DNA from: a virus
Direction: 5' to 3' (one strand)
DNA: 23,220 nucleotides
Virus record (IMG/VR): IMGVR_UViG_3300035698_023459
Location: 1 to 23,220 of that record
Made by a program: the position numbers and the translations under genes. Every line of letters starts with the position of its first letter. The stretch's first letter is position 1. The notes under the pieces were generated by a model. The model had not been told where the DNA came from. It did not search any database and worked only from the letters and a program-made list of their open reading frames with translations. This document shows, piece by piece, positions 6,224 to 21,477 of this stretch.

Positions 6224-6922
6224 TTAAGTGTCTTCGTGGTATTTTTTCGGTAAAATTTTATTCCACTTCTTTTCAAAATAAGCTATGTCATGCTTCATAG
6301 CTTTTTTCCTAATCTCTCCCGACTCTGAACCGTAATTTGTAGTCTGTCCCCACATATGAACACTTCTAGCAATAGTGAACGCATTTAACATACCCGTTTT
6401 TCCCATCCTGTCCATAAAATCCGTATCGTCCCAAAACATTTTATAATTTTCGTCAAACTCTCCTATTTGTTCAAAGGCTTCTTTCCTAATCAAACAAAAA
6501 GATATTCCTCTACAGACTCTTACAAAAATGTAGTAGCTTCTAATCTCTCCGTAAACTATTCCAGCTTTTGGAAATTGTACTAAACCTTCTACTAATTTTT
6601 CAATCCCTTTTCTTTCAATAATAAAAACATCACTGTCCATTAATAATAAATTTTCATAACCACCTTGATTAAGCTCTTTCACCTTTTTTAAAATTCTATT
6701 CCTGCCTCCTGCTATTCCTAAATTTACTGGCTCTCTTATTATAAAATCTTTTTGAGGGTCAACACATTTAGTTAATTTATTAAATGTATCATCTAAACTT
6801 CCTTGGTCTATGGCTATAATTGAAAGTGGAATGTCGGTTGATTTTCTAAGAAACCAAAACCAAGGCTCTACAAGTTCCTCGTTATTTCTAAATAATACTC
6901 CAACTCTTACTCCATCAAACAT
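6224..6922 (-). CDS. Family 2 glycosyltransferase, copy A of a tandem pair
   Basis: A 232-residue GT2 enzyme. Its ATG lies in the last codons of the upstream GT gene (8-bp overlap) with a GGAGAACTAT SD. It has IIAIDQGSLDDT (35-46), NLGIAGGRNRIL (67-78), the DSD metal motif at 96-98, and MFWDDTDF (162-169). The C-terminus beyond residue 170 diverges from its paralogue in length and sequence, although both keep a HMWGxTT motif near residue 190. The copies lie head to tail with 16 bases between them. They may add two different residues, or the same residue at two positions, of one glycan. Confidence 0.87.
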   Translation of the reverse strand: MFDGVRVGVLFRNNEELVEPWFWFLRKSTDIPLSIIAIDQGSLDDTFNKLTKCVDPQKDFIIREPVNLGIAGGRNRILKKVKELNQGGYENLLLMDSDVFIIERKGIEKLVEGLVQFPKAGIVYGEIRSYYIFVRVCRGISFCLIRKEAFEQIGEFDENYKMFWDDTDFMDRMGKTGMLNAFTIARSVHMWGQTTNYGSESGEIRKKAMKHDIAYFEKKWNKILPKKYHEDT

Positions 6923-7751: not shown

Positions 7752-7955
7752 TTATCCAATAGTCATAAAATTTATTGCTTTAGGATTTGGTTTAGCAATT
7801 TTATTTTTATTTAATGACTGTAAAACTTCTATAATAGTTTCCAAAGAATCAAAAGCATATTTTAATTCAGGCAAGAATAAATCCTTGCTAATATTCTTTT
7901 TCATATCATTAGCCCATACCAAAGCCAATTCTATTTTAGTTTTTTCCATTTCCAT
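7752..7955 (-). CDS. Small helical protein (67 aa)
   Basis: A 67-residue frame beginning inside the last 20 bases of the GT9-methyltransferase gene (GGAGAAAATAA before ATG). It ends nine bases before the next GT start. The protein is largely alpha-helical, with amphipathic stretches (ELALVWANDMKKNI, then YAFDSLETIIEVLQSLNK). No family, metal motif or membrane segment is visible. Tight packing between two glycosyltransferase genes and the overlapping start suggest it is translated with them, perhaps as a partner or adaptor. Function unknown. Confidence 0.55.
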   Translation of the reverse strand: MEMEKTKIELALVWANDMKKNISKDLFLPELKYAFDSLETIIEVLQSLNKNKIAKPNPKAINFMTIG

Positions 7956-9678
7956 TTATTTTCTCCAGTGTCATTACAATCATATCTTCTTTTCCCTTTC
8001 TCAATATTGTGCTATGACCAATTCCCCATAAATGCATTTTAGTTTCTCTATGTTCATCTCCTATCGGTAAAGACAATATAATTATTCCATCAGGTTTACA
8101 AACTCTTTCGAGTTCCACTAATCCTTTTGCCATACTTGGAATATGCTCTAAGACTTCTCCACACATTACTGTATCAAAACTATTATCTGGAAATGGAAGG
8201 GAATGTATATCTCCGTACATTGCTTTTAAGCCTTTGTCCAACATTCTTTTTAATCTAATTTTACTTATTTCAATAGCAGTTACGTCATAGCCTTGCTTTG
8301 TTAAGACTTCCACACAATAACCATCTCCAGCTCCGACTTCTAAAACAGTTTTACCTTTTACTTTTGCCATCATTGCGTGAACTCTATCCCACTGCCAAGA
8401 CTCTGCTTTATAATGACTTTTCCCGAGAGGAAGTTCAATTGCGAACTTTTCATTAATGTCATCTTTATCATAATCAAGATGAGCAGGAAGAGGTTTCATT
8501 TTCATTATTTTTTCTATCCCTTTTATTACTTGGTCAGATGTAATCGCATTCATACATTTAACAGGATAGGGATAACCTTCAGGGCACTCTCTAAACCAAT
8601 CATCTTTAGTCCACCATTTACCTCTACATTTAAATGGAGTAACTATGTTTACATTTTCTTTGTAACCAAAAAAGTGAGGAGGGGTTGGACCAAATAAAAT
8701 TACACTTCTTGTTCTTACAGCTCGAGCAACGTGAGCCAATCCAGTCTCTCCGTCTAAATGAAATTGAGCTTGGGAAATCAAAGCAGCAGTTTGTTTTACT
8801 GTCGTCCTTCCTGTAAGGTCTACTACTCCCTCAACTAAAGTTTCATGTTTATTTCCTATCTGAATAACTTTTAATTTTTTTGTCTTTAAATATTTTACAA
8901 CCTCACCCCATTTTTCTGCTGTCCAGCTTTTAGTTTGTCTGGAAATATCCGAACCGTTGTGGAGAGTAACATATTTAGTTCCTTCCATCATTAAACCTAA
9001 AGTAAAGTCATTAGGTGTAAGGTTAATGAATAGGTCATCGTCAGAGCCTTGCAAACCTGCTGTCACTAATGAAAGTTCTCTCTCCGTTACTCTAACCTTC
9101 TGAGATAGTTTATGGTTGCTAGAAGGAAATGCATTGTATAAGGTTTGGTAAGGCTTAAATCTTTCATCGGCTTCATTTTGTTCTTTCTCATATTTCTTTT
9201 TATTCTTATAAAAAACTCTAGTCACATATCTATTGTCATAAATTAAATCAAACTCTTCACTCTGTACTCTTGCTAAAAGATTGCTCCATCCTACATTATT
9301 ACAAATCACTACTCTATCGACTGAAGGGTTGTCTTCAATTATTTCTCTTCCAGTTGTATCTCTTATAAAAAGAGTAATGTGACTGTCGGGAAATTTTCTC
9401 TTAACAGCTTTTGCTATTTTAGCAAGTATGAGAGAATCTCCAAGACCTCCAATCCTAATAAGTGCTATTTTAAATCTTTGACTTTTCTGGACTGGTGTAA
9501 GGAGTTCTTTAACAGTCGGTTGGTTTGCGATTTCTTTCAGGAGTTCTTCAGCAACTTTAGTGGTGTGAACTAAATAGTAAGCATCATTATCCGAGACATC
9601 ATAAACGACTCCAGCCACGTAATGTTTTCCTGCCCAACTATGTTCACCTGACTTCCTCAACAAGCGAATCTTTGGCAT
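7936..9678 (-). CDS. GT9-type glycosyltransferase fused to a SAM methyltransferase
   Basis: A 580-residue three-part protein. Residues 1-50 (MPKIRLLRKSGEHSWAG...) form a small beta domain resembling short phage head-region proteins. Residues 69-395 resemble family 9 (heptosyltransferase-like) GT-B enzymes: FKIALIRIGGLGDSL (69-83), a donor-side DGETGLAH (309-316) in place of the usual D-S/T-G-P-x-H, and a three-Cys region (351, 365, 375) with ECPEGYPYPVKC. Residues 430-575 are a class I methyltransferase with VLEVGAGDG (445-453) and GEVLEHIP (507-514). One chain could therefore transfer a sugar and methylate it. It is the first gene after the capsid gene's terminator and leads the modification island. 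GT9 enzymes normally build LPS cores, so use in a phage suggests a different acceptor. Confidence 0.85.
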   Translation of the reverse strand: MPKIRLLRKSGEHSWAGKHYVAGVVYDVSDNDAYYLVHTTKVAEELLKEIANQPTVKELLTPVQKSQRFKIALIRIGGLGDSLILAKIAKAVKRKFPDSHITLFIRDTTGREIIEDNPSVDRVVICNNVGWSNLLARVQSEEFDLIYDNRYVTRVFYKNKKKYEKEQNEADERFKPYQTLYNAFPSSNHKLSQKVRVTERELSLVTAGLQGSDDDLFINLTPNDFTLGLMMEGTKYVTLHNGSDISRQTKSWTAEKWGEVVKYLKTKKLKVIQIGNKHETLVEGVVDLTGRTTVKQTAALISQAQFHLDGETGLAHVARAVRTRSVILFGPTPPHFFGYKENVNIVTPFKCRGKWWTKDDWFRECPEGYPYPVKCMNAITSDQVIKGIEKIMKMKPLPAHLDYDKDDINEKFAIELPLGKSHYKAESWQWDRVHAMMAKVKGKTVLEVGAGDGYCVEVLTKQGYDVTAIEISKIRLKRMLDKGLKAMYGDIHSLPFPDNSFDTVMCGEVLEHIPSMAKGLVELERVCKPDGIIILSLPIGDEHRETKMHLWGIGHSTILRKGKEDMIVMTLEKINGNGKN

Positions 9679-18242: not shown

Positions 18243-20036
18243 TTATAAGATTGATACTGATACTGCTCCATAATAACTATTGTTCTCAACTATATTGTGT
18301 ACCATACCTGCGACTGCGTCACTAACATCCTTCGTTCCTTTAGGTGGATGGTCAACCTTTCTTCCCTCTATTTCTTCTAAGTGCATACATTCTTTTACAA
18401 ACCATTCGGACGCACTCTTTTTTTCTCCATGACTCTTAACACAATAATAATCTAATCTGTCTTCATTAATTGCTTCTTTCAAACTATAATATGGAATTGT
18501 ATTTCTATCGACCGATAAAACCTTACACACATATCCTTTCTTTTCTAATATTTGAATTGTATCTATACTTTGGAATCCATCGAATGTAACCACTTGTATA
18601 TTAAATCCCATCTCTTTCAACTGATACACATATTCTCTTAGCTTAGCAATTTGTACTGGAGCCTTAGCACTACCCTGAAGCCGAATGAGACAGTCCACAT
18701 AAATATTACAACCACCCTCAGGAGTGTAACCACTAAGGTGTCCCATAGCTAATCCGCAAGCATCTCCTGTTATGCCTAAATCTACGTGGATGGCATGGAA
18801 GGCTCTTTTATCTAAAGGTTCAAACCATTCTTTAAAAGTTCCATCTTCATTCATTGGGTCTTCGGTTCTATCCTGATTTATTTTATCAAGGACAACTCTT
18901 GGTCTTTCAAAAAAGCTGTCTAGTGTAGCACTCGGTCTTGCTCCAAAGTCTCGATAGGCTTTTGTAATGTTCGCATTAAAGGCTTTCACTAAGAATGAAA
19001 CTGCTGGAATCTTATCAATATCTTTTCCCTTCACTTGATTTTTATGTTCTTCGGCTGTCGAATATCTTTTGTTAACTCGGTCTACATAAAAAAATTCACC
19101 TTCCCATTCATTATATTTTGCTTTCCATAATGGACGTCTCACACTCAGGACTCGGTTATGTAATTCTTCGCCTTCCATTATCTTTCCCTCAAGGAAGTCA
19201 TTCTCATATAGAGGAGAACCTGCAACGACTATGGCACCTTTATTCTCAAACCGACTACCTAACCGACGTTGGAGAGATAAATAAATGTCCTCGGCTTGGT
19301 CTTGGTTATCCGTACTTCGATATGCTCCAGCCTCATCTATTACTCCGACTATAATATTGTACCCAACAGCTGTACGCCAAGAAGAACTGCCTGGAATTAT
19401 GAACGTATTATTTTTAAATCTTAATTCACTTGTACATATTGGGTCTGGGCATCTTGCGTCGTCTCGACTCCAAGGTCTTTCTTGGAACCATTTACTTAAT
19501 TTTATTTTACTACTGATTTCTGAAAATATGACTTTTCTCGCATTACGTTCAGAGATGGACATATTCATTATTGCTATCTTCGAGGATTCATCTATGTGGA
19601 AGTATCGTTGAGGACTCCGAAGGCATAACAGTAGGTGCTGAAAATATGTAGAGATAATACTTGTCTTAAATGATTTACCACTACCGATTCCTTCACAGAA
19701 GATTGCTTCATCGTATTTTCTATGCCACGGATTGACGTCTCCCTCTACTCTTTCAAAGAACCTTACACAGTCTTCTAAAACCGAGGCTCTAATCACTTCA
19801 CCTAAATTCAAATACTTTTCCCCAAGAATCCATTCATCGATTGTCGCAGGAACCCATCGCCATTGATTAAAATTATATCCTTTACTTTCAACCAGCATAA
19901 GATTTCTTATTTCATCAGTGAACGCATCGGTACAAACAAACTCAGATGTGTCTAAATCCCCATCTTGCTCGATTGGGGTGAGCTGTTCTACTAACTCGGC
20001 TACTGTTCTGTTTTCTTCATGTTCAAACAAACTCAC
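18243..20036 (-). CDS. Terminase large subunit
   Basis: A 597-residue motor and nuclease with a GTG start and an AAAGGATAT SD. The ATPase domain has Walker A GIGSGKS (116-122) and Walker B IIVGVIDEAG (228-237) with D234-E235. A coupling motif is likely at VVAGSP (270-275). The RNase H-like nuclease domain has acidic residues at D419 (IHVDLGITGD), D486 (VTFDGFQS) and D573 (DVSDAVAGM), the usual three-Asp set. It docks on the portal and packages DNA into the prohead. It lies upstream of the portal gene with 12 bases between and is preceded by the repeat region discussed below. Length and motif order are normal for the family. Confidence 0.93.
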   Translation of the reverse strand: MSLFEHEENRTVAELVEQLTPIEQDGDLDTSEFVCTDAFTDEIRNLMLVESKGYNFNQWRWVPATIDEWILGEKYLNLGEVIRASVLEDCVRFFERVEGDVNPWHRKYDEAIFCEGIGSGKSFKTSIISTYFQHLLLCLRSPQRYFHIDESSKIAIMNMSISERNARKVIFSEISSKIKLSKWFQERPWSRDDARCPDPICTSELRFKNNTFIIPGSSSWRTAVGYNIIVGVIDEAGAYRSTDNQDQAEDIYLSLQRRLGSRFENKGAIVVAGSPLYENDFLEGKIMEGEELHNRVLSVRRPLWKAKYNEWEGEFFYVDRVNKRYSTAEEHKNQVKGKDIDKIPAVSFLVKAFNANITKAYRDFGARPSATLDSFFERPRVVLDKINQDRTEDPMNEDGTFKEWFEPLDKRAFHAIHVDLGITGDACGLAMGHLSGYTPEGGCNIYVDCLIRLQGSAKAPVQIAKLREYVYQLKEMGFNIQVVTFDGFQSIDTIQILEKKGYVCKVLSVDRNTIPYYSLKEAINEDRLDYYCVKSHGEKKSASEWFVKECMHLEEIEGRKVDHPPKGTKDVSDAVAGMVHNIVENNSYYGAVSVSIL

Positions 20037-20103
20037 GGTCTATATCCTTTAAGTGTTCAGTTTTATGCTCAGTTTGTTCCAGCTTTTCTGTCGTTCATTA
20101 TGT

Positions 20104-20253
20104 TCATTCATCTTCCTCAGTAAAGTCTCTCCACTCCTCGTTAAGATATTTTTCACTAGGAGATAACCACCCAAGTAAAACAACCACTCCTATCTCTACC
20201 ACGATTGTAACCATAATCCCAATAAAAATCCCTTTTACCAATATTATATTCAT
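20104..20253 (-). CDS. Single-pass membrane micro-protein (49 aa)
   Basis: A 49-codon frame between the TerS-like gene and TerL. Residues 2-30 (NIILVKGIFIGIMVTIVVE...) form one clear transmembrane helix. The remaining 19 residues are acidic (EKYLNEEWRDFTEEDE) and probably cytosolic or periplasmic. The SD is weak (AAAAGG, 11 bases away), but its ATG overlaps the stop of a preceding seven-codon frame, so it may be reached by reinitiation. A 20-codon frame (20049-20111) begins inside its end and stops at the TerL SD. Possible roles include a small holin-like or superinfection protein, but nothing in the sequence decides. No family recognised. Confidence 0.5.
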   Translation of the reverse strand: MNIILVKGIFIGIMVTIVVEIGVVVLLGWLSPSEKYLNEEWRDFTEEDE

Positions 20254-20281
20254 ATACTCACGAGCCTTTTCATCGTTTCAT

Positions 20282-20341
20282 ATTTACATTCATAAATCCA
20301 CCAACACATTCATCTACCCATCAACACATTCATCTACCCAT
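20282..20341 (-). repeat. 20-bp tandem repeats between TerS and TerL
   Basis: Two perfect 20-bp copies (20302-20321 and 20322-20341) and at least one diverged copy (20282-20301) lie in tandem. On the minus strand ATGA occurs exactly every 20 bases, with ATGs ending at 20333, 20313, 20293, 20273 and 20253. Each of the first four opens a seven-codon frame whose TGA overlaps the next ATG. The array could be a TerS-binding packaging site, a translation-coupling device, or both. Confidence 0.7.
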
Positions 20342-20344
20342 CTA

Positions 20345-21256
20345 TCAATTATCTGCCCCATCTAAATCCTCGAGGCTATTGAATCCGTCAAAGCTTATTT
20401 CATTCACGAGCCTCGCAAATACTTTCTTTCGACTATCTTGGTCTTTCACTTCGCTCTTAACTATCCGAATAAGTTTCACAACCATAGACTTAACCTCTTT
20501 CACCTTTACATCTATGTCGACTCCTCCCGTCATAATAATCTTTATAGCATCATCACCAGTGAGTCCAAACTTTTCCCATATCTGTAGCATACTGGCTGTC
20601 TGGGTTCTTAATAGGTTTAGATAATTTTGTTGAGTAGAATGAATCTGAAATAAACTCTTAGCTGTTTCTGGAAGTGATATTAATACACTCGTTGGAACAT
20701 CTACTCCTCTTTTAAATCTATCTCTCACAGTTCTAATGATATCTTGTATATTCCTTACATCATCTTCTAATTGCATATATTTATCCCACGTCATTCGGGT
20801 TTGTTGGTCTATCTGTAGCATAAGGTCTATCATATGCTCTAACAATTTTTTATTCGTTCTTAAATCCCTTTTTAAATTTCTGAGGATGCTACGTCTAATC
20901 ACATTCACATCATTATGTACTTGACTTACTACTACTCCAAAAGCTTTCGCAATCTCTCTCATACTTTTTCTCATAACGAAATAATACTTTGCTACCAGCT
21001 CTCTTCTTTTATCTATATTGTTAGTGGCTCTCGATTCTATCTCGATTAATTCATCAGCTGTTACACTTACTTGCGCATCTATATCAACCGAGGACATTAG
21101 CTGAACTGGAATAACCATATGCTTCCAAGTTTTTATTTCGTCTAAATGAATTATGGAATCACTTACGTTTACATTCAGTGGTACAAGCTCTACCACCTTT
21201 TCAAAGCCTTCCTCGGCTCTTATATTATCCTCTACTCTAATATTACAATCTTCCAT
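20345..21256 (-). CDS. Probable terminase small subunit (HTH protein)
   Basis: A 303-residue protein with an AGAGAGGAATGT SD. A helix-turn-helix lies at about 96-125 (KSMREIAKAFGVVVSQVHND, then VIRRSI), as in small terminase subunits and some sigma-like DNA-binding proteins. The middle (130-240) is a long helical region, and the end is charged (DFN-type SLEDLDGADN). It precedes TerL in the operon, the usual TerS place, and is followed by tandem repeats that TerS could bind. TerS normally forms a ring that selects the viral DNA and recruits TerL. The N-terminal 80 residues do not match a family I know. Alternative: a late transcription regulator with a sigma-like HTH. Confidence 0.65.
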   Translation of the reverse strand: MEDCNIRVEDNIRAEEGFEKVVELVPLNVNVSDSIIHLDEIKTWKHMVIPVQLMSSVDIDAQVSVTADELIEIESRATNNIDKRRELVAKYYFVMRKSMREIAKAFGVVVSQVHNDVNVIRRSILRNLKRDLRTNKKLLEHMIDLMLQIDQQTRMTWDKYMQLEDDVRNIQDIIRTVRDRFKRGVDVPTSVLISLPETAKSLFQIHSTQQNYLNLLRTQTASMLQIWEKFGLTGDDAIKIIMTGGVDIDVKVKEVKSMVVKLIRIVKSEVKDQDSRKKVFARLVNEISFDGFNSLEDLDGADN

Positions 21257-21477
21257 TACATTCCTCTCTTAAGATTTTCAATCATTCTCTCAGCTTTCCC
21301 AATACTCTTTTCTTGTAAGTAAACGAGGTCATCAAGCTTAGTATTTTCTACTAGCAAAAATTCTATGGTCATATTGTTAAGCCTTTTCATCGTTTTATAC
21401 TGCTTAAGCCGATTAAAGCATATCAATTTATTCTTTTCGTAATCAATCACATTATTTTTCTTTATAGTCAAAGTCAC
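21256..21477 (-). CDS. Small protein (73 aa) before the TerS-like gene
   Basis: The frame starts with GTG at 21475-21477, overlapping the preceding gene by 26 bp. The nearest SD (AAAGG) is only three bases away, so a downstream start is possible. The stop overlaps the next ATG (TAATG). The protein is basic and helical (DYEKNKLICFNRLKQYKTMK, then VYLQEKSIGKAERMIENLKR). No motif is recognised. Tight packing supports it; the start is uncertain. Confidence 0.5.
   Translation of the reverse strand: MTLTIKKNNVIDYEKNKLICFNRLKQYKTMKRLNNMTIEFLLVENTKLDDLVYLQEKSIGKAERMIENLKRGM

Follow-up and report, generated by a model that had tools for sequence, protein, structure and literature searches.

Termination-reinitiation at ATGA overlaps, where the stop codon of one frame shares bases with the start codon of the next, is an established process (PMC6728339, 2019; PMC10666635, 2023). 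In the reporter work described, reinitiation works over very short gaps and breaks down when the gap reaches about 20-38 nt, and 15 nt from the end of the upstream gene are enough for it (PMC10666635); removing ribosome-binding sites cut or abolished reinitiation in four of the five E. coli pairs reported (PMC6728339). The window analysed here is a virus record of 23,220 bases (IMG/VR IMGVR_UViG_3300035698_023459), classed as linear and treated as a linear fragment without mapped ends. Between the genes for the small (TerS) and large (TerL) terminase subunits it has a ladder of ATGA overlaps on a degenerate 20-bp repeat, which leads to a 49-codon open reading frame (ORF) designated micro49. 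All genes named below are on the minus strand. The ladder is similar to the described cases in its co-directed frames with stop/start overlap and in a possible coupling without strong ribosome-binding sites (PMC6728339, PMC10666635). The cases in these reports join two real genes, whereas the window has five successive non-conserved frames of 3-7 codons, known from sequence alone and present in none of the relatives. With moderate confidence, the locus is considered a lineage-specific insert in an uncultured tailed phage, made up of a small gene behind a degenerate minisatellite, with the ladder largely a by-product of the repeat. The features of the junction are the following.

18243 to 20036, minus strand: TerL, large terminase subunit, 597 aa with a GTG start (PHROG terminase large subunit, E 5.5e-10; 55-63% identical in relatives).
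20037 to 20344, minus strand: insert of 308 nt from the TerS stop to the TerL start (no room for it in 11 of 11 related records).
20104 to 20253, minus strand: micro49, ORF of 49 aa with one membrane helix (read by eye) and an acidic tail (codon score; no relative found).
20250 to 20273, minus strand: ladder frame 4, MKRLVSI, its TGA overlapping the micro49 start; doubtful member of the repeat as unit 4 (chain search, unit comparison).
20270 to 20293, minus strand: ladder frame 3, MNVNMKR, its TGA overlapping the next ATG (chain search).
20290 to 20313, minus strand: ladder frame 2, MNVLVDL, its TGA overlapping the next ATG (chain search).
20310 to 20333, minus strand: ladder frame 1, MNVLMGR, its TGA overlapping the next ATG (chain search).
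20330 to 20341, minus strand: MGR, three-codon frame starting 3 nt past the TerS stop (sequence, chain search).
20345 to 21256, minus strand: TerS, small terminase subunit, 303 aa, with a helix-turn-helix (HTH)-like segment at about residues 80-132 (adjoins TerL; homology; Pfam).

The ATG codons start at 20341, 20333, 20313, 20293, 20273, and 20253, in steps of 8, 20, 20, 20, and 20 nt, and a step of 146 nt follows. The TGA of each of the first five frames shares an ATGA with the following start. The chain ends at the ATG at 20253, which opens micro49, and the micro49 TGA in turn overlaps an ATG at 20107. Sequence and chain search thus agree with the preliminary description of this DNA in the five ATGs exactly 20 nt apart (20333 to 20253), in the four seven-codon frames closing on the next ATG, and in the MGR frame just past the TerS stop. 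The ladder steps are -4 and the step from TerS to the ladder is +3, so that stops and starts lie as close as in termination-reinitiation coupling. Because of this first step of +3, an overlap-only path (-4 to -1) from TerS to micro49 is incomplete. The mini-peptides differ between the repeat units.

The insert has no counterpart in the relatives. TerS and TerL abut or overlap in all 11 related records with both terminase genes, representing eight lineages (L063, L003, L068, L077, L087, L072, L078, L082, L094, L096, and L070), and 0/11 have an insert or array. L087, L072, L078, and L082 were counted as one lineage, as they are at least 99.5% identical where overlapping; over aligned parts, L094 is 79% identical in DNA to this cluster and L003 76% to L063. 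In nine of the 11 records, the first aligned TerL residue lies at most 70 nt past the TerS stop or before it, with an in-frame TerL start codon inside TerS. The TerL start of L094 and L096 was not set by the script, so how far the first aligned TerL residue lies from the TerS stop served instead; this distance is about 20 and 32 nt, respectively, and about 400 nt in the window. Tandem Repeats Finder (TRF) recognized no array at the TerS/TerL junction of L063, L003, L068, L077, L090, L078, L082, L094, L070, and L096. Records with a TerL match and no TerS match at the tblastn limit (L065, L066, L067, L069, L073, L075, L079, L080, L084, L085, and L088, with L097-L104 as further copies of such records) were left out because the junction could not be defined, and second copies (L064, L083, L086, L089-L093, and L095) were not recounted. 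No array with the 20-bp period and the ATGA, which the preliminary description had proposed to look for in relatives, was found at their junctions, and relatives with no repeats at all are what it had named as speaking against a ladder. Conservation of the ATGA is confined to the array of the window; no relative keeps the ATGA and the period modulo 3 while other bases drift.

Micro49 itself looks like a gene. Its codon score is 0.187, while in-frame gene pieces score 0.05 to 0.47 (5%-95% points) and the 95% point of off-frame pieces is -0.01. The pooled mini-frames, with a score of -0.167, are not coding-like. The score is a guide only, as the upstream 73-codon gene also scores poorly (-0.099). 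Micro49 was found neither in Pfam, phage records, and viral contigs nor in the 20 related records (0/20), although the query is so short that an empty answer shows little. It is a probable small membrane-protein gene: the last ATG of the ladder, said earlier to start a membrane micro-protein, does open an ORF of 49 aa with a coding-like score, and the membrane helix is a reading by eye. The G+C content is 0.357 in the insert, 0.356 in TerS, and 0.380 in TerL. The small gene would have entered a junction at which relatives overlap TerS and TerL, more probably gained here than lost in all the relatives. A slippage-prone stretch of A, G, and T only before micro49 would then have grown, through slippage or duplication in tandem, to the short array of 20-bp units that is now decaying.

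Three other origins were considered and rejected. For an insert derived from a duplicated TerS tail or TerL head, the local alignments were matched or beaten by 199/200 and 125/200 shuffles, respectively. The string EKYLN, common to micro49 and TerL, is not significant (304/500 shuffles). Nor is micro49 convincing as a small gene that relatives carry at another place: among 348 small ORFs the top score was 39, for a TerS fragment of L096, and 1/300 shuffles equalled it, too weak a result after 348 tests.

20241 to 20340, minus strand: degenerate 20-bp tandem array of five units in register, with a clear core of about 2.8 copies at 20286-20342 (TRF, unit comparison).

The array has head-to-tail copies at a fixed period above chance and thus falls among tandem repeats of the minisatellite kind. 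TRF reported 2.8 copies at 20286-20342 with 89% matches and a score of 86, and there are two exact 19-nt copies in the array and none in 100 shuffles. Outside the ATGA core, units 2, 3, 4, and 5 match unit 1 at 15, 9, 6, and 9 of 16 sites, respectively (p 0.017 each for units 3 and 5; p 0.28, chance level, for unit 4). With its 6/16 match, unit 4 is doubtful as a repeat member. The 20-bp tandem repeat first described is therefore clear in about 2.8 copies, and one of its units is at chance level outside the core. The ATGA is kept in all five units, with p ~7e-4 if units 2-5 differed from unit 1 at random positions, so it is non-randomly kept, either constrained or recent; the p for any contiguous 4-base block kept in all five units is 1.1%. 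The kept core does not discriminate between codons and DNA binding, since the core of a DNA site would look alike. The repeat motif is absent elsewhere in the window when up to three mismatches are allowed. TRF also made a 27-bp and other weak calls in the window. A 16-nt exact match (about 21380-21395) was noted between ladder unit 4 (20263-20282) and the interior of the upstream 73-codon gene (21380-21399), with a blastn E of 0.002 for the 20-nt match.

A repeat of this kind brings the ladder with it. As the period of 20 is two more than a multiple of 3 and the unit includes the ATGA, each frame closes on the next ATG, and the ladder would need no selected role; the by-product option mentioned in the preliminary description fits best. 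The same is seen in bacterial repeats. A search of 384 genomes from a single bacterial phylum for four ATGA at a fixed period gave 6/384 genomes for 20 nt and, for the out-of-phase periods, 3/384 for 19 nt and 1/384 for 22 nt; the backwards control pattern was found in 3, 0, and 3 of these genomes for periods 20, 19, and 22, respectively. The six bacterial 20-nt arrays are minisatellite-like, with 4 to 30 ATGA copies, where the count of 30 covers two matches about 500 nt apart of unchecked continuity. Each of their units gives, when read by eye, an open seven-codon frame, so a stop/start ladder comes free with a repeat whose period leaves remainder 2 on division by 3 and which has no other in-frame stop. 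These arrays share with the window array the head-to-tail ATGA units and an identical ladder on paper. They are, however, located in cellular genomes and mostly have near-identical copies; the window array is a short, decayed one that lies precisely at the position from the stop of a phage gene to the start of an ORF. If the ladder is a by-product, which is judged more likely, it is a caution that any 20-nt or other 3n+2 repeat with ATGA and without other in-frame stop mimics a designed stop/start ladder.

The connection between TerS and micro49 is uncommon, not extraordinary: a stepping-stone path (steps -4 to +3 nt) was present in 195/2000 dinucleotide shuffles of the 91-nt spacer and in 52/3000 genome-like spacers. 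In 300 second-order Markov strands, ATGA chains, whatever their spacing, reached a maximum length of 1 in 2 strands, 2 in 154, 3 in 111, 4 in 27, 5 in 6, and 6 in none. The window and the collected loci, 1.75 million strand-bases in all, contain no other equal-spaced run of more than two links, and 0/36 virus records searched have the 20-nt pattern in its three-ATGA form. Matches to the array 16-mer in viral contigs (59 stretches) were taken as chance, as none has a TerL/TerS match and none an equal-spaced ladder of more than two links.

Several observations weigh against the by-product explanation. The ATGA is kept in five units while their remaining bases diverge, with the low p value given above. 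The ladder spans the 91-nt gap from TerS to micro49, from 3 nt past TerS to the very start of a coding-like ORF. By chance, the two links outside the clear array would occur about 1% of the time, as the product of the base rate (62 of the 595 ATGs are ATGA-linked). In the bacterial genomes, period 20 outnumbers both 19 and 22, as a phase preference would have it, although the numbers are small.

A rival explanation is a translational ladder, in which ribosomes leaving TerS reinitiate at 20341 and hop over the ATGA overlaps across 91 nt, with micro49 synthesis coupled to that of TerS but at a fraction of the TerS level. Phase and ATGA would then be what is retained in the repeat, irrespective of the peptides encoded. 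The unbroken chain reaching micro49 and the kept ATGA core agree with such a ladder, as does a micro49 that has no strong ribosome-binding site (-3.2 kcal/mol) and is coding-like by score. The array is also C-free (the C-free run of 79 nt from 20354 is the longest on the sense strand), and shuffled versions of the region fold as well as it does (z -0.61). Since the reported constructs reinitiate across very short gaps and no longer do so at about 20-38 nt, short hops would be a way to carry TerS ribosomes over 91 nt (PMC10666635). This gap dependence, as published, and the kept ATGA core are together the strongest argument for a function of the ladder.

Such a translational ladder is nevertheless thought unlikely, and an ordinary insert with a by-product repeat more likely. 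The strongest counterargument is that the ladder is conserved in no relative, together with the loss of reinitiation on removal of ribosome-binding sites in the pairs reported (PMC6728339). The ladder ATGs are without such sites: the anti-Shine-Dalgarno (anti-SD) duplex energies from 20333 to 20253 are -2.6, -2.3, -4.9, +0.4, and -3.2 kcal/mol, that of the first ATG at 20341 is -4.8, and the median over the 595 ATGs of the strand is -2.4, as against -8.3 for TerS and -5.4 for TerL. Losses would also multiply across six hops, and the shuffled spacers form stepping-stone paths as well. Micro49, with its weak site, may receive some ribosomes by reinitiation from TerS.

Rather unlikely, too, is a repeat-built ribosome ladder in the full sense, in which tandem duplication of a 20-nt start/stop unit keeps coupling across a new insert and TerS ribosomes hop five mini-frames to a newly acquired membrane-protein gene. 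If true, it would let phages add small genes to a terminase operon whose genes overlap tightly. A working ladder would mean that tiny overlapping frames, free from a simple repeat, carry ribosomes over a gap far too long for ordinary reinitiation. Translational coupling would then have a further, new form, through which genes could be inserted into overlapped operons. Literature searches of open-licence PMC papers did not find such a stop/start ladder, which does not show its absence from print. The bar minigene of phage lambda is a very short ATG-started frame that acts on translation. To our knowledge, minigenes of the lambda bar and axe-txe type are not arranged as overlapping tandem ladders. 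The axe-txe minigene, as reported, resembles the ladder frames in being very short, started by ATG, and acting on translation (PMC8708949).

A ladder running on from TerS to TerL, as first proposed, found no support. Two more features are involved.

20045 to 20050, minus strand: AAAGGA, probable TerL ribosome-binding site (sequence; duplex energy -5.4 kcal/mol).
20049 to 20111, minus strand: 20-codon frame, probably not a gene (read from sequence; lies within a TTG-started ORF).

The 20-codon frame does close at the TerL Shine-Dalgarno sequence as described, with its TAA inside AAAGGA; with a codon score of -0.388 it is not coding-like. TerL is probably translated from this site of its own, with which the stop of the 20-codon frame overlaps. 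An extension of the ladder to TerL is not supported: TerL has its own site (-5.4), the last frame ends 12 nt short of the TerL start, the 20-codon frame is not coding-like, and 11 of 11 related records with both genes are without array and insert.

Quite unlikely is a DNA site, in which TerS (pac/cos-like) or a regulator would bind the repeats as iterons and recognize ATGAA with TG as the core, the start and stop codons arising incidentally. Consistent with it, the core TG-N5-ATGAA is invariant across the five units at 20-bp spacing (about two helical turns), TerS has an HTH-like segment, and the pac of SPP1 is described as having direct repeats near TerS (PMC4737164). The likeness to SPP1/SF6 pac, direct repeats near a TerS gene with HTH, goes no further in what that paper describes: the SPP1/SF6 repeats span the TerS start, not its end, and the SF6 DNA-binding domain is little specific for them, whereas the window array follows TerS at a junction that is bare in relatives (PMC4737164). 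No junction array, and thus no TerS-bound site kept at this place near the terminase genes, was found in 11 of 11 related records with homologous TerS (0/11). The units are not palindromic by eye, and their motif does not recur in the window within three mismatches. TerS-binding iterons, the alternative offered in the preliminary description, are therefore not supported at the junction of relatives with homologous TerS (35-39% identical), where relocation of a site is possible.

That the entire insert including micro49 is decaying junk, without product or site, is highly improbable: no micro49 homologue was found, its ribosome-binding site is weak, and the 20-codon frame and mini-frames are not coding-like, but the micro49 codon score is in the range of real genes, above 95% of off-frame pieces, and micro49 reads by eye as a well-formed membrane helix with acidic tail.

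Rfam has no match in the window, and promoter and terminator signals in the region show no excess over shuffles.

Other repeats and insertions were observed near the terminase genes of relatives. In L068, a C-free (ATGG)n run that includes additional ATGs (6776-6848) separates TerS from the small gene upstream of it, and TerS apparently starts in the tail of the run. These repeats sit before and inside the TerS start, and (ATGG)n is unable to form a ladder of the window type; ATG-rich simple repeats thus do arise at gene junctions of the group, not in ladder form. At 1285-1375 in L090, a 22-bp unit with the palindrome ATACAAT/ATTGTAT at its core is repeated three to four times in an operator-like arrangement, just in front of a membrane-like ORF of 47 aa that lies about 2 kb upstream of TerS. 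TerL is interrupted in an intron- or intein-like manner in two lineages, L070 (1868-2908, about 1.04 kb, near residue 121) and L096 (817-1899, about 1.08 kb, near residues 156-162), and no Rfam family reached the threshold for these interruptions.

The ORF at 20345-21256 is probably TerS, judged from its position, its HTH-like segment, and its homology to the pre-TerL gene of relatives; it is 35-39% identical to this gene in five of them. Its Pfam match to a SpoIIID-type HTH has an E of 2.8e-5, just below the cut-off. An AlphaFold2 model of TerS is mainly helical, with a mean confidence (pLDDT) of 51.8, too low for use. One bacterial contig of a metagenome-assembled genome titled Candidatus Omnitrophica encodes a TerL that is 33% identical. 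Portal, head, and major head genes lie downstream of TerL. Directly 3' of the major head gene, at 7936-9678, is an ORF of 580 aa, the C-terminal part of which matches methyltransferase families.

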